In this document: positions 4,537 through 10,818 of the stretch, piece after piece
How positions within the stretch are numbered: position 1 is the stretch's first letter
Layout of the letters: every line of letters starts with the position of its first letter
Source: Thermococcus henrietii
Lineage (GTDB): Archaea; Methanobacteriota_B; Thermococci; Thermococcales; Thermococcaceae
Length of the DNA: 64,000 nt
Assembly (NCBI RefSeq): GCF_900198835.1
Contig: NZ_LT900021.1
Span: 372,001 to 436,000 of the forward strand
Direction of reading: 5' to 3'
The notes under the pieces: model-generated
What the model was told of the DNA's origin: nothing
The model's input: only the letters and a program-made list of their open reading frames with translations
Databases searched by the model: none
Translations under genes and position numbers: made by a program

Positions 4537-7278
4537 ATGAGCATGGATATGACGACTCGCATGTTCAAGGAGGAAGGCTGGATAAGGAAGCGGTGCCCCA
4601 AGTGTGGCAAATACTTCTGGACGCTCGACCCTGACAGGGAAACCTGTGGAGACCCGCCCTGTGACGAGTACCAGTTCATAGGAAAGCCCGGCATACCGAA
4701 GAAGTACACCCTCGACGAGATGCGCGAGAAGTTCCTGAGCTTCTTCGAAAAGCACGGCCACGGAAGGGTCAAGCGCTACCCGGTTCTTCCGCGCTGGAGG
4801 GACGACGTCCTCCTCGTCGGCGCTTCAATCATGGACTTCCAGCCCTGGGTCATCAGCGGTGAGGCCGACCCGCCGGCGAACCCGCTCACGATTTCCCAGC
4901 CTTCGATTCGCTTCACCGACATAGACAACGTCGGAATAACCGGCAGGCACTTCACGATTTTCGAGATGATGGCCCACCACGCCTTCAACTACCCGGGCAA
5001 GCCGATTTACTGGATGGACGAGACCGTTGAGCTTGCCTTCGAGTTCTTCACAAAGGAACTCAAAATGAAGCCCGAGGACATAACATTCAAGGAAAACCCC
5101 TGGGCCGGCGGAGGAAACGCCGGACCGGCGTTCGAGGTTCTCTACCGCGGTCTGGAAGTGGCAACGCTCGTCTTCATGCAGTACAAGAAGGCCCCGGAGA
5201 ACGCCGACCCGAGCCAGGTGGTCGAGATAAAAGGCGACTACTACGTCCCGATGGAGACCCGCGTTGTGGATACCGGCTACGGCCTTGAGAGGCTCGTCTG
5301 GATGAGCCACGGCACGCCTACCGCTTATGACGCCGTTCTCGGCTACGTCACCGAACCGCTCAAGAAGATGGCCGGCGTTGAAAAGATAGACGAGCGCATT
5401 TTGATGGAGAACTCTCGCCTCGCCGGAATGTTCGACATCGAGGACATGGGCGACCTGAGATATTTGAGGGAGCAGGTTGCCAAGCGCGTCGGAATAACCG
5501 TCGAGGAGCTTGAGAAGGCCGTTAGGCCCTACGAGCTCATCTACGCAATAGCTGACCACACGAAGGCCCTAACCTTCATGCTCGCCGACGGCGTAATCCC
5601 GTCCAACGTCAAGGCCGGCTACCTCGCGAGGCTCCTCATCAGGAAGAGCATAAGACACCTCCGCGAGCTCGGCCTTGAGGTTCCGCTCGCTGAAATCGTC
5701 GCCATGCACATAAAGGAACTCCACAAAGATTTCCCCGAGTTCAAGGAGATGGAGGACGTTATCCTTGACATAATCAACGTCGAGGAGAAGCGCTACCACG
5801 AGACCCTCAAGAGGGGAAGCGACCTGGTGAAGCGCGAGATAGCCAAGCTCAAGAAGAAGGGCATAAACGAGCTTCCGCTCGAAAAGCTCATTCTCTTTTA
5901 CGAGAGCCACGGTCTAACGCCGGAGATAGTGGCCGAGATTGCCCAGAGGGAAGGCATAAAGGTCGAGATTCCGGACAACTTCTACACGCTCGTAGCTAAA
6001 CAGGCCGAGAAGACCGAGAAGAAGACGGCCGGAGAATACGTCGTTGACTTCGAACTTGTTAAGGACTTACCTGAGACGAGAACGCTCTACTACGAGGACC
6101 CCTTCATGAAGGAGTTCGACGCCGAGGTCGTTAAGGTCATAGATGGCTGGATAATCCTTGACCAGACGGCCTTCTATCCGGAGGGCGGAGGTCAGCCCTG
6201 CGACACCGGCGTTTTGAGGGTTAACGGCGAGGAGATTAAGGTCACGGACGTCCAGAAGGTCGGAAAGGTAATCCTCCACCGCGTTGATAAACCTGAGCTC
6301 TTCAAGCCGGGCGTTAAGGTTCACGGAAAGCTCGACTGGAACAGGAGAATCCAGCACATGCGCCACCACACGGGAACGCACGTCCTCATGGGCGCGCTCG
6401 TCAGGGTTCTTGGAAAGCACGTCTGGCAGGCAGGTTCACAGCTCCACAAGGACTGGGCGAGGCTGGACATCTCCCACTACAAGCGCATAACCGAGGAGGA
6501 GCTCAGGGAGATAGAGCGCCTGGCAAACCGCGTCGTCATGGAGAACAGGAAGGTGACCTGGGAGTGGCTTCCGAGGACCGAGGCAGAGATGAAGTACGGC
6601 TTCAGGCTTTACCAGGGTGGCGTCGTTCCGGGAAGGGTCATCAGGGTCCTCAAGATAGAGGACTGGGACGTTCAGGCCTGCGGTGGAACTCACCTGCCGA
6701 ACACCGGCCTAATCGGTCCGATTAAGATTCTCCGCACCGAGAGAATTCAGGACGGTGTTGAGAGGATAATCTTCGCGGCGGGAGAGGCGGCAATCGACTG
6801 GATGCAGGAGACAGAGAGGCTCCTCAAGAAGACCGCCGAAATCTTCCGTGTCCCGCCGGAGAAGGTGCCGGAAACCGCTGAAAGGTTCTTCAACGAGTGG
6901 AAGGAAGCGAGGAAGGAGGTCGAGAAGCTCAGGAAGGAGCTGGCAAAGCTCCTCGTCTACGAGCTGGAGAACAGGGTCGAGAAGGTTGGCGATGTAGAAT
7001 TCATCGGCGTCGTGGTTGATGGCACGATGGAGGACCTCCGCGAGGCGGCCAACAGACTCAGGAAGGACAAGAGGGTTGTTGTCCTCATCAGCAGGGAGGG
7101 CCACTTCGTGGTTGCAGTCGGCGATGGCCTTGACCTTAAGGCCGGGGAGCTGGCGAAAATAATAACCTCCGTCGCAGGCGGCGGCGGTGGCGGAAGGAAA
7201 GAACTCGCGCAGGGCAGGATAAAGAACCCGCTGAAGGCCGAGGAAGCTATTAACGAGGTCAAGAAGAGGCTCGGGTGA
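4537..7278 (+). CDS. alaS: Alanyl-tRNA synthetase
   Basis: Charges tRNA-Ala and edits mischarged Ser/Gly-tRNA. The 913-residue archaeal form starts with a zinc-ribbon-like extension ([10 protein letters not shown] ... CGDPPC, residues about 16-40). The class II catalytic core follows ([31 protein letters not shown]). The editing domain has [15 protein letters not shown] and [11 protein letters not shown] as zinc/catalytic residues, and a Gly-rich C-Ala domain ([14 protein letters not shown]) ends the protein. ATG 4537 is chosen: GGGGTGAGG is immediately upstream with about 5 nt spacing, and the GTG at 4528 lies within it. The transcript probably ends in the T-rich stretch right after the stop. 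Confidence 0.97.
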
Positions 7279-7297: not shown

Positions 7298-7684
7298 TTG
7301 ATTCAATCCCTTGAGGTGTCCCCAATCAAGGTCAAAACCCTAACCCGTCAGATAATCGGGCTTGCCGATGAGCTCGGCTTCAGGGCCGTTTCAGAATACC
7401 GGACGCCGGACGGCACTAGAATAGACGTTGCAATCCTTGACGGCGAGAAAAAGCTTTTGGCGATAGAGCTTGAGGCATCTTTCAAGTGGTTCCCTCAGAG
7501 GGTCCTCTACGACGTCGTTAAGGCCCACCGAGCCGGTTTTCCTGAGCTGTGGGTGGTAACGCCCTTCAATGCGAACCCGGGCTGGGTTCTCAAATACGCG
7601 GAAGAAGTCGGGCTCATCCTTAGGATAATGGGAGAAGAGAGGGTTCTTCCAGAGCTCAGGACTTTTCTCCCTTCCGGTACTTGA
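7298..7684 (+). CDS. Putative nuclease-fold protein
   Basis: 128 residues, cytosolic. The core GTRIDVAILDGEKKLLAIELE, followed by a helix with conserved Tyr/Asp (RVLYDVVKA) and the strand ELWVVTPF, has the beta-hairpin/helix order of restriction-endonuclease-like (PD-(D/E)xK) folds, with D in the first strand and E-x-E in place of D/E-x-K. That is a fold-level guess; activity is uncertain because the Lys is replaced. The start is unclear: TTG 7298 gives the longest frame and GTG 7316 is an alternative; neither has a good ribosome binding site. The 3' end overlaps the convergent gene by 29 nt. Confidence 0.55.
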   Translation: MIQSLEVSPIKVKTLTRQIIGLADELGFRAVSEYRTPDGTRIDVAILDGEKKLLAIELEASFKWFPQRVLYDVVKAHRAGFPELWVVTPFNANPGWVLKYAEEVGLILRIMGEERVLPELRTFLPSGT

Positions 7685-8120
7685 TGTAGATGACGTCTTC
7701 AGCGTGCCAGAACGGGGCCTTTTCTCCGATGACCTTTATCTCTGGCGTGGCTTCTCCATTGACAACCTTCACCGCGAGCTCCTTGGGAAGCTGGAACTGT
7801 ACGTATACTTGACTGGGGAGGCTGTCCTTGTTTACCGTTATTCTGAACGTGGTGGTCCCCCTGTAGTTTTTGTCCCCGTATCTGACCAGATAGCTCGTCC
7901 CCTCTGGGAATTTAATCGTCAGCTCAAAGGAGCTTATCTTGGGGTTTATGTGCATCGTAAAGAGGCCAAAGCCATCCTGTGTTACAAACGTAACGCTCTG
8001 GTTGTCTATGTAGAACACTTCTTTGTAGTCAATCGTAGCCGGCGGCAGCTGGGCGGTCTTGAAAGCGTACGCCACGAGTGCAATCGTGATAATTGCCATA
8101 ATAGCGAGGGCCTTGTTCAT
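7656..8120 (-). CDS. Membrane-anchored extracytoplasmic protein
   Basis: 154 residues. One N-terminal hydrophobic segment (ALAIMAIITIALVAYAF) acts as an uncleaved anchor or signal. The rest is a beta-strand-rich domain with no recognised motif. I do not recognise the family. The start is ATG 8120: on the minus strand GGTGA lies 5 nt upstream, and the GTG at 8129 is part of that site. The gene is convergent with, and overlaps, the nuclease-fold gene. A short leader region up to 8195 shows nothing else. Confidence 0.6.
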   Translation of the reverse strand: MNKALAIMAIITIALVAYAFKTAQLPPATIDYKEVFYIDNQSVTFVTQDGFGLFTMHINPKISSFELTIKFPEGTSYLVRYGDKNYRGTTTFRITVNKDSLPSQVYVQFQLPKELAVKVVNGEATPEIKVIGEKAPFWHAEDVIYIKYRKGEKS

Positions 8121-8195
8121 CTCTGTCACCCGAAAAACTTTGTTTCAGCAGGTTATTAACGCTTTTGTGTAGGTGATTACGCCGAAAAAACGAAA

Positions 8196-8948
8196 TTAAA
8201 GACCGGTTGGCTCGTCTATGAAGAAGACGCTGAGCCCGAACTTCTCCCTGATGAGCTCCATAAGGGCCTTAACTCCCAGCGTCTCCGTCTTGTAGTGGCC
8301 CGCAACCAGAACGCTCTGGGGCAGGTCGAGGGCCGTCAGATAGTCCGCGTGGCCGAATTCGCCTGTGATGAGGAGGTCTATTCCCTTCCCGTAAGCTTCT
8401 TCCAGCGCAAAAGCGCCTGCCCCGCTTATCGCGCCGACAGTTTTAACCTCTCTCCTCCCGAACTCGTAGGTTCTGACGGTCGTGTCGAGCTTCTCCGCTA
8501 TTATCTGGGCCACCTTCTCAATCGGCTGTGGCTCCTCGAACTCACCGTAGAAGCCTATGCTCAGGCCCCTGTACTCACCGAAAGATCCCCTGGGCTCCAG
8601 ACCGAGGAGTTTGAGCAGGCCGACGTTGTTGCCGACTCCCGGGTGCGCATCGAGGGGCAGGTGGGCGGCGTAGAGGTTCAGGCCGTTTTCGATTAGCGCC
8701 TTCAGGCGCTTGTAGTGGATACCTGTTATATAGTTAAGACCTCCCCAAATCATTCCGTGATGTACTATCAGCATGTCGGCCTTTCCCTTAACGGCTCTCT
8801 CGATTGTTCTGAGCGTCGTGTCAACGGCAAACGCTACCCTCTCAACCTCGTCCTTTCCCTCCACCTGCAGTCCGTTGCTCGACTTGTCAGGGTAAGCCGA
8901 AACCTGAAGGTACTCGTCGAGGAAAGCGACCAGCTCGTTGCGGTTCAT
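8196..8948 (-). CDS. NIF3-like dinuclear metal protein (YbgI/GCYH-II-like)
   Basis: 250 residues, the full length of the single-domain NIF3 family. It has the family's metal ligands in HHGMIWGG (HH near residue 66-67), the D-x-H/P of AAHLPLDAHPGVGNN, and the C-terminal GHYKTETLGVKAL and FIDEPTGL segments (usual G-H-x-x-x-E). Bacterial members are annotated as GTP cyclohydrolase type 2 homologues, but most have no proven reaction, so only the fold and dinuclear site are claimed. ATG 8948 is chosen because GAGGTGAG lies 3 nt upstream; the longer frame to 8966 has no such site. It is divergent from elp3 and shares a 97-bp intergenic region with two palindromes. Confidence 0.85.
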   Translation of the reverse strand: MNRNELVAFLDEYLQVSAYPDKSSNGLQVEGKDEVERVAFAVDTTLRTIERAVKGKADMLIVHHGMIWGGLNYITGIHYKRLKALIENGLNLYAAHLPLDAHPGVGNNVGLLKLLGLEPRGSFGEYRGLSIGFYGEFEEPQPIEKVAQIIAEKLDTTVRTYEFGRREVKTVGAISGAGAFALEEAYGKGIDLLITGEFGHADYLTALDLPQSVLVAGHYKTETLGVKALMELIREKFGLSVFFIDEPTGL

Positions 8949-8960
8949 CTTCTCACCTCT

Positions 8961-8991
8961 ATTCACCTGGTGAATTATTCAGTAACTGAAT
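8961..8991. promoter_or_regulatory. Two adjacent 15-bp perfect palindromes (operator candidate)
   Basis: ATTCACCTGGTGAAT (8961-8975) and ATTCAGTAACTGAAT (8977-8991) each have perfect 7-bp arms around one central base, are separated by 1 bp and share the outer half-site ATTCA. They lie 13 bp upstream of the NIF3-like start on one side and just upstream of the elp3 TATA box (CTTTTAAAAC, 9006-9015) on the other. This is what two dimer sites for one regulator look like; which promoter is controlled is inferred. Confidence 0.65.
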
Positions 8992-9045
8992 ATGTCCCAC
9001 AAACCCTTTTAAAACCCCGCCCTACATCGAGCGAGAGGTGTCGCT

Positions 9046-10818
9046 ATGGATGAGAGATTCCAAGAGGCAGTTAGAGAGCTTGCGAGACTCGTGATGGAGG
9101 GCGAGATTAAGAGCAGGGACGAGCTCAACCGCTGGAAGATTAAGGTGGCGAGAAAGTACCATCTCTCAAAGATTCCGGGCAACTCGGACATCCTGAAGGC
9201 AATTCCGGAGGAGAGGCGCGAGGAGTTCAGGGATTTGCTGAAGAGAAAGCCCACGAGGACGATAAGCGGAGTGGCAGTTGTCGCTATGATGACGAAGCCG
9301 TTTCCCTGCCCTCATGGCAGGTGTATCTACTGTCCCGGCGGGCCGAGCGTCGGTTCGCCCCAGAGCTACACGGGAAGGGAGCCTTCCGCTTTGAGGGCAA
9401 TCCAGAGCGCCTACCACCCTTACATCATCATGATGCGCAGATTAAAACAGCTCACCGACATAGGCCACGACGTTGACAAGGTCGAGGTCATAATCCAGGG
9501 CGGAACCTTTCCGGCGGTTGATTTGGACTACCAGGAGTGGTTCATAAAAGAGGCCTTCAAGGCGATGAACGATTTTCCACACTTCAAAGAGGTAGAGAAC
9601 CTTGAAGAGAAGCTGATTAGGCTGATAGTGAAGAAGGACGAGTCCGTTTTTGAGGAGGACCCGAAGTTCCGCGAGGCGTGGCTCAAAACCCACTCCAAAC
9701 CCTACTACTACCTTGAAGACGAGCAGAGGAAGAACGAGAAAGCTAAGGTCAGAATGGTTGGCCTTACGATAGAGACAAGGCCCGACTGGGCCTTCGAGAG
9801 GCAGATTGACAGGATGCTCAAGCTCGGAACGACGCGCGTTGAGCTGGGCGTTCAGACGGTTTTCAACTTCATCCACGAGAGGACCAAGCGCGGTCACGGC
9901 GTCGAGGAGATTGTTAAGGCCACACAGCTCCTCCGCGATGCTGGCTTGAAAATCAACTACCACATAATGCCCGGTTTACCGGGGAGCAACTTCGAACGCG
10001 ACCTATACACCTTCAGAACGATTTTCGAGGACCCCCGCTTCAGGCCCGACATGCTCAAGGTTTACCCGACGCTCGTAACCAAGGACGCCCCCCTCTACCG
10101 CTGGTGGAAGGAAGGTAAATACCACCCCTACCGCACGGAAGAAGCCGTTGAGCTCCTCGTTGAGGCTTACAAGCTCTTCCCGAAGTGGGTTAGGGTAATG
10201 AGAATCCAGCGCGACATTCCCGTTCAGCTCATCGTTGACGGCGTCAAGCACTCGAACCTCGGTCAGCTGGTCTTCAACGAGCTTATCAAGAGGGGTATAA
10301 GGCCGAGGGAGATTCGCTTTAGGGAAGTCGGCCACATGATGGAGAAGTTCGGAATCCAGCCGGAGGTTGAGCATATAAAGCTCCTCCGCGAGGACTACGA
10401 GGCATCTGGCGGAAGGGAGATTTTCCTGAGCTTTGAAGATACCAAGAACGACATACTGATAGGCTTCCTGCGCCTCAGGATTCCGAGCGAAAAGGCCCAC
10501 AGGAAGGAGATAAACTGCTGTCCCTCGGCGATAGTCAGGGAGCTCCACGTTTACGGCCCGCTCGTGCCGATTGGCGGGAAGCCGAGGTACGAGTGGCAGC
10601 ACAGGGGTTACGGAAGGGAGCTTCTGGTCGAGGCTGAAAGAATCGCCCGCGAGGAGTTCGACGTCAAGAAGATGCTCGTAATCAGCGGCGTCGGCGTGAG
10701 GGAGTATTACAGAAAGTTCGGCTACCGGAAGAACGGACCCTACGTCGCGAAGAGGCTCGATAGGGGCTACGCCGAATATAAAAAGAGCAGGGAGTTCGAC
10801 GCGCACCTGAACACTTAA
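9046..10818 (+). CDS. elp3: Elp3, tRNA uridine-34 carboxymethylation enzyme
   Basis: Archaeal Elp3 alone uses acetyl-CoA and S-adenosylmethionine to form the 5-carboxymethyl group on wobble U34 of tRNA. The 590-residue protein has a radical SAM domain with cluster cysteines C88, C93 and C96 (PCPHGRCIYCPGG) and a C-terminal GNAT acetyltransferase domain from about residue 450 (RGYGRELLVEAERIA; ISGVGVREYYRKFGY). A second Cys pair (INCCPS, about 485) lies near the interface. GAGGTG precedes the ATG and the TATA box is at 9006-9015. Convergent with the next gene, with a 4-nt overlap. Confidence 0.95.
   Translation: MDERFQEAVRELARLVMEGEIKSRDELNRWKIKVARKYHLSKIPGNSDILKAIPEERREEFRDLLKRKPTRTISGVAVVAMMTKPFPCPHGRCIYCPGGPSVGSPQSYTGREPSALRAIQSAYHPYIIMMRRLKQLTDIGHDVDKVEVIIQGGTFPAVDLDYQEWFIKEAFKAMNDFPHFKEVENLEEKLIRLIVKKDESVFEEDPKFREAWLKTHSKPYYYLEDEQRKNEKAKVRMVGLTIETRPDWAFERQIDRMLKLGTTRVELGVQTVFNFIHERTKRGHGVEEIVKATQLLRDAGLKINYHIMPGLPGSNFERDLYTFRTIFEDPRFRPDMLKVYPTLVTKDAPLYRWWKEGKYHPYRTEEAVELLVEAYKLFPKWVRVMRIQRDIPVQLIVDGVKHSNLGQLVFNELIKRGIRPREIRFREVGHMMEKFGIQPEVEHIKLLREDYEASGGREIFLSFEDTKNDILIGFLRLRIPSEKAHRKEINCCPSAIVRELHVYGPLVPIGGKPRYEWQHRGYGRELLVEAERIAREEFDVKKMLVISGVGVREYYRKFGYRKNGPYVAKRLDRGYAEYKKSREFDAHLNT

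Follow-up and report, generated by a model that had tools for sequence, protein, structure and literature searches.

What reads two perfect palindromes placed side by side between two divergent archaeal genes, and which gene do they serve? The question is raised by a short intergenic region of the window, that is, the whole 64-kb stretch of DNA analysed here, which belongs to a genome of 2,155,760 bases in one contig (G000). A sequence-only reading of the window had taken the pair for a regulator-binding site coupling elp3 to its neighbour nif3. The pair was followed through the relatives, through the archaea at large and through the protein family with which it is associated.

The paired palindrome and its promoter context

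The two palindromes, to which no strand is assigned, occupy positions 8961-8975 (ATTCACCTGGTGAAT, proximal to the nif3 start) and 8977-8991 (ATTCAGTAACTGAAT, distal to it). Together they form a putative 31-bp operator of two tandem 15-bp palindromes (8961-8991, minus strand), assigned from sequence, conservation and constraint. As had been described, both are perfect and share their outer half-sites around different inner bases: the arms are 7 bp long, the gap is 1 bp, the centres are spaced by 16 bp, and the half-sites ATTCA/TGAAT lie at 8961-8965, 8971-8975, 8977-8981 and 8987-8991. The whole element is also a dyad, centred at 8976. The pattern ATTCAN5TGAAT occurs in the window at these two palindromes and nowhere else, against an expectation of 0.05 per window, and 0 of 100 shuffles reached two occurrences, in agreement with the original estimate that chance is very unlikely. 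A search of the 2.16-Mb genome returned the motif once more, at 942677-942691, with an imperfect centre; its neighbours are unrelated, and as a related element this third site was rejected, since it looks like chance.

By profile match, the flanking genes are nif3 (DUF34/NIF3, PF01784/TIGR00486, 250 aa; 8196-8948, minus strand), whose start adjoins the operator, and its divergent neighbour elp3 (TIGR01211, a tRNA U34 radical SAM/GNAT enzyme of 590 aa; 9046-10818, plus strand), 97 bp away. The pair thus lies between two divergent starts and, as had also been noticed, next to the presumed TATA box of elp3 (CTTTTAAAA, a TATA-like box at 9006-9014, plus strand). What had been missed, judging from the letters alone, is the situation on the minus strand: a TATA-like box (ACATATTCA, 8987-8995, minus strand), presumed from its position to be that of nif3, and the nif3 start codon at 8948 flank the pair, which is therefore no less a part of the promoter reading towards nif3 than of that of elp3. 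A presumed Shine-Dalgarno sequence of nif3, GAGGTGA, is found by sequence at 8953-8959 on the minus strand. The nif3 TATA-like box overlaps the distal half-site, and the genes called X below carry TTTATATTCAC at the equivalent place. The window open reading frames beside nif3 (7298-7684 and 7656-8129) gave no Pfam or NCBIfam match.

Association of the pair with gene X

Among 94 genomes of the family Thermococcaceae, the pair, defined by 20 fixed bases with up to 2 mismatches, was found at 54 places in 52 genomes, while a reversed-pattern control gave 0 places in the same 94. According to coordinates, 25 of the 54 are at the start of a gene, X, and 29 at the start of an X-less nif3, with none elsewhere. 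A protein-only search of the phylum (115 genomes) gave 25 X genes, all in Thermococcaceae; 24 have the pair at their start, and these are all the X genes with an intact 5′ end, the 25th (G086) missing its first 40 codons. X genes of other genera, at unrelated loci, have the same element at the start, and two genera (g3 and g4) have no pair except those at X. An AbiEi-like antitoxin/regulator gene (L111, 1887-2675) lies near the stand-alone X of G034.

Within the genus (61 genomes), nif3 was detected in 57 genomes at 58 places, and the upstream DNA of all 58 loci was read. Most junctions at which nif3 and elp3 are direct neighbours have the pair, which on the elp3 strand typically reads TATTCACTTGGTGAATTATTCACTAACTGAATATGTCC and is followed by the elp3 TATA box. 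It is lost, deleted or decayed at L006, L032, L040 (partially), L047, L048, L052 and L053, and L057-L060 have a single palindrome in a longer spacer. X precedes nif3 in 14 loci. When X stands between nif3 and elp3, the pair stays beside the X start; there the coding strand reads TTTATATTCAC...GTGAATANNATG, and the TATA box directly adjoins the first half-site. The X stop and the nif3 start overlap by 4 nt in all 12 X-plus loci measured, and hence nif3 is probably under the same switch in X-plus genomes. The proposed coupling of elp3 to nif3 is not supported by this comparison, because the pair follows X and nif3 and leaves elp3: in G010 about 750 bp separate it from elp3, and the elp3 promoter itself is without it, and in G034 and genera g3-g6 it precedes X, far from elp3. 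The distance from the pair to the elp3 TATA box also varies among genomes. Hence elp3 is probably not the main target. Two side observations concern these junctions: in G027 and L045 a stub of the X 3′ end precedes nif3, X and operator being gone, and elp3 of G016 (G016:C1, 621351-623113) is split into two overlapping open frames.

The exact pair was also sought as DNA in 84,980 species. Of the 69 stretches obtained, 50 show the pair at an X gene or at what remains of one, namely 49 starts recognized by an N-terminal motif (some truncated or frameshifted) plus L265, in which three tandem ATTCAGTAGGTGAAT palindromes (6761-6807) precede, close to a contig end, an X-like start with what looks like a frameshift. 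For 44 of the 49 X starts listed by the motif, the start codon follows the pair at a distance of 2-4 bp. Three further stretches, from Thermococcus records (L248, L252, L281), are nif3 junctions without X; six archaeal ones (L277, L279, L285, L300, L307, L316) have neither X nor a nif3 junction, and ten are bacterial and look like chance. The chance expectation for the whole collection, by composition alone, runs from 0.01 (60% G+C) to 6.6 (30% G+C). X-bearing records come from Micrarchaeota, Diapherotrites, Nanohalarchaeota, Aenigmatarchaeota, Pacearchaeota, Nanoarchaeota, Methanosarcinales, Methanoperedens, ANME-2, Hadesarchaea, Thermoproteales and others, and since many of them are metagenome bins, single taxon labels may be wrong. 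One contig titled Flavobacteriales (L259), with an archaeal-type X start and operator, is probably misbinned. The pair is absent from viral contigs, and on plasmids and phages the matches to X, among those listed, reach at most 31% and 28% identity, respectively. At L250, L272, L296 and L302 an intact operator is followed by a frameshifted or very short X frame; in these cases X decays while the operator stays.

The pair is therefore the start-site element of X genes across archaeal phyla, and the same element stands at X-less nif3 genes. The earlier observation is real, conserved in relatives and present elsewhere, and it is more interesting than described, its target being shifted from an elp3/nif3 coupling to a candidate immune ATPase family and an orphan nif3 site. 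The reading as a paired regulator-binding site has good support, as half-sites are conserved, the layout is identical across phyla and selection is purifying; the binding itself we infer.

Protein X

X is a protein of 466 amino acids in which PF01637 and PF03008 score above cut-off (L008 and L111 proteins), and it forms a subfamily of the DUF234 AAA+ ATPases composed of an AAA+ module, a winged helix and a nuclease-like domain. Thirty X proteins from the scan are 43-83% identical to that of L291; the alignment comprised 31 of 33 full-length X proteins, L293 and L314 being left out. The AlphaFold2 model built from the 31 sequences (pLDDT 90.5, pTM 0.88) places the predicted winged helix at residues 248-306, between the AAA+ module and the nuclease-like domain, with helices 248-257, 263-270 and 278-287 and strands 291-298 and 302-306. 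The nuclease-like domain, of PD-(D/E)XK-like type, holds the invariant residues D389, E404 and K406. The nearest solved folds are 2qen and 2fna, followed by Orc/Cdc6, MalT, Apaf-1, CED-4 and plant NLRs.

The PADLOC models of PDC-S27 match X (2.7e-34), which would make X a candidate anti-phage protein. In the part of PMC12988326 available to us, PDC-S27 is counted among candidates, for most of which validation is pending, and is reported as especially abundant among archaeal candidate defences, with 3503 archaeal detections. X was compared by description with arCOG03166, given as 'AAA+ superfamily ATPase fused to HTH and RecB nuclease domains' in the accessible portion of PMC4158269. Neither of these two texts, as far as those portions go, mentions an operator for DUF234/PDC-S27-type ATPases, and a literature search on DUF234 operators, archaeal ATPase palindromes, NIF3 in Thermococcales and PDC-S27 found no description of these operators.

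Constraint on the orphan site

The window element agrees with the X-type DUF234 operator pattern, two ATTCA-N5-TGAAT palindromes 1 bp apart, with zero mismatches. Directly 3′ of it is the nif3 start, and no X gene is found at the X-type position 2-4 bp downstream. X is absent from the whole genome, the best protein match having 40% identity. On the nif3 tree the presence of X changes 13 times; X has thus come and gone, gain and loss not being separable by the tree. The absence from the window's genome probably reflects loss, which we infer, as against X never having been there.

At X-less loci on this tree, the number of changes per column is 1.05 for half-sites and 2.8 for centres, to be compared with 8.98 for four-fold sites of nif3 (n=59) and 0.88 for second codon positions. 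Half-site columns consequently vary about 8.5 times less than four-fold sites, and centres vary more than half-sites (permutation p 0.023). The count covers 31 of the 44 X-less loci, six without a recognisable elp3 TATA box nearby and seven with the element lost or moved being left out, and holds for genomes that kept the element. The X-less site is under strong constraint. Since this selection acts on the half-sites in genomes without X, something still reads them, and this requires a reader other than X.

The centres behave differently. The start-proximal centre is GTTGG in 14 of 14 X-plus sites at the nif3-elp3 junctions of the genus and in 0 of 16 exact X-less pairs, in which it is mostly CCAAG or CCAGG; the window, with CCAGG on the nif3 strand, belongs to the latter kind. 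Because the centres differ with the state of X, the specificity of the X-less site may have changed, and the difference would be a sign that the site has been re-tuned or is bound by another protein. DUF234 paralogues are perhaps the candidates for its present readers. X-less genomes that kept the pair have on average 5.55 DUF234 genes (n=29) and the nine with the pair lost or damaged 3.11 (p 0.03, relatedness uncorrected); the four genomes with a single palindrome were counted separately. In G028 one palindrome persists although the genome gave no DUF234 match.

Other DUF234 genes and their dyads

The window's genome has eight DUF234 ATPase genes, all outside the window (G000:C1, at 86235, 609328, 610733, 938583, 1421590, 1752731, 1917149 and 2062668), and in most of them the stretch from TATA box to start codon contains an inverted element peculiar to that gene. 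A narrower tandem-palindrome score was significant for 6 of 25 DUF234 genes and was replaced by a 33-bp dyad score because it was too narrow for such diverse dyads. With the latter, 21 of 31 DUF234 upstream regions gave p≤0.05 and 16 gave p≤0.01 against dinucleotide shuffles, these p-values being exploratory as the score was picked after seeing the sequences. The 56 window open reading frames used as controls, which include operon-internal genes, gave 3 and 1, respectively, the latter being nif3. The 31 regions, drawn from 35 loci by omission of L212, L213, L220 and L231 for want of an N-terminal anchor, are not independent, several being orthologues; genes of the L192 type fail the score. Paralogues 33-37% identical to X (L187 and L190 types) share its operator layout and GTTGG as the centre, with ATCCA/T in place of ATTCA on the arms. 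Such a symmetric change of half-sites is what recognition of each palindrome by a protein dimer would lead one to expect.

Discussion

Taking these observations together, we propose, with a probability of about 0.6, that the pair is the operator of X-subfamily DUF234 ATPases, autoregulatory in origin and kept as a switch of nif3 after loss of the ATPase. In the model, X would bind its own operator through the winged helix, one dimer per palindrome, side by side. Bound X would cover the TATA box, the transcription start and the ribosome site through the start codon, and such coverage would amount to autorepression: X would repress its own gene and, where both share an operon, nif3. When X left, nif3 would have inherited the operator as a control site of its promoter, and in the window's genome another DNA-binding protein, perhaps a DUF234 paralogue, would still read it. 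A protein bound within so compact a region (97 bp) may affect elp3 too. An RNA hairpin seems an improbable alternative: transcripts of X genes are inferred to begin within the element, which itself stops 2-4 bp short of the start codon, and an RNA with the full hairpin would therefore rarely exist.

The constraint in X-less genomes, and the single palindrome kept in G028 where there is no DUF234 match, would also be explained if one conserved host regulator other than X read all ATTCA pairs and had X and nif3 as its targets. We regard this as unlikely: the regulator would have to be common to all archaeal phyla with an X-linked pair, the restriction of the pair to X in g3 and g4 speaks against it, and DUF234 paralogues with dyad sequences of their own are hardly to be read by one regulator. 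A little less credible still is that nothing reads the window pair any more and that it is a relic left by a lost X, kept only through its overlap with the nif3 core promoter. The absence of X here, its 13 changes on the nif3 tree, the stub left before nif3 in G027 and the deletion of the pair in some X-less genomes (L006, L052) would suit a relic, but the slow half-sites and faster centres do not readily follow from a core promoter alone, and the window palindromes are perfect.

Co-regulation of elp3 and nif3 by one regulator through the pair, as the sequence-only reading had it, now appears improbable. In an intergenic region as compact as that of the window, 14 bp would separate the bound protein from the elp3 TATA box, and it could easily act on both genes, but the pair parts from elp3 whenever X or other DNA intervenes, and its spacing to that box is not fixed. 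Binding by the NIF3 protein itself, regulating its own gene, draws on a review according to which, in the part accessible to us, an archaeal DUF34 homologue binds ss- and dsDNA in vitro (PMC8469502); it leaves the pair before X at loci without nif3 unexplained, and we give it very little credence. A mobile or homing site, with X inserting at the nif3 pair, is a further but less likely possibility, since homing at nif3 does not explain why the pair travels with X to other loci.

Ownership of the pair by the X subfamily would have several consequences. The control of PDC-S27 could be approached directly through a fixed DNA address at the start codon, one that can be bound, footprinted and mutated, and the X-less loci offer a natural case of a regulatory site under selection after the presumed regulator gene has gone. 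More tentatively, and with the odds somewhat against so wide a statement, the DUF234 ATPases, as candidate immune proteins, could be many self-addressed regulators, each with its own palindromic promoter address read by its own winged helix, several distinct ones per genome, and with an address outliving its gene at nif3. On this reading, the housekeeping gene nif3 would, in many genomes of the genus, now answer to a switch left behind by a lost candidate immune ATPase, and an X that arrived would take that switch over. Protein-DNA recognition codes of the DUF234 family could be read off paralogues.

X is by domains and fold a member of the archaeal DUF234/ATPase_2 AAA+ ATPases (PF03008 plus PF01637; PDC-S27), and the window operator is the start-site element of its subfamily, the ATPase gene itself being absent from the window. 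A known type of regulator is the autorepressor whose own promoter is overlain by tandem palindromic operators. The present case resembles such autorepressors in the paired palindromes between TATA box and start codon, which travel with the gene. It differs in that the protein presumed to bind is no small repressor but a STAND-like AAA+ protein that includes a nuclease-like domain, and in that a single genome holds several DUF234 paralogues whose sites are not alike. The archaeal Orc1/Cdc6 AAA+ winged-helix proteins, for their part, have origin boxes near their genes. They share with X the combination of AAA+ and winged helix, a gene near its own repeated DNA site and a fold match, but the site of X overlaps promoter and start, and X adds a PD-(D/E)XK-like domain.
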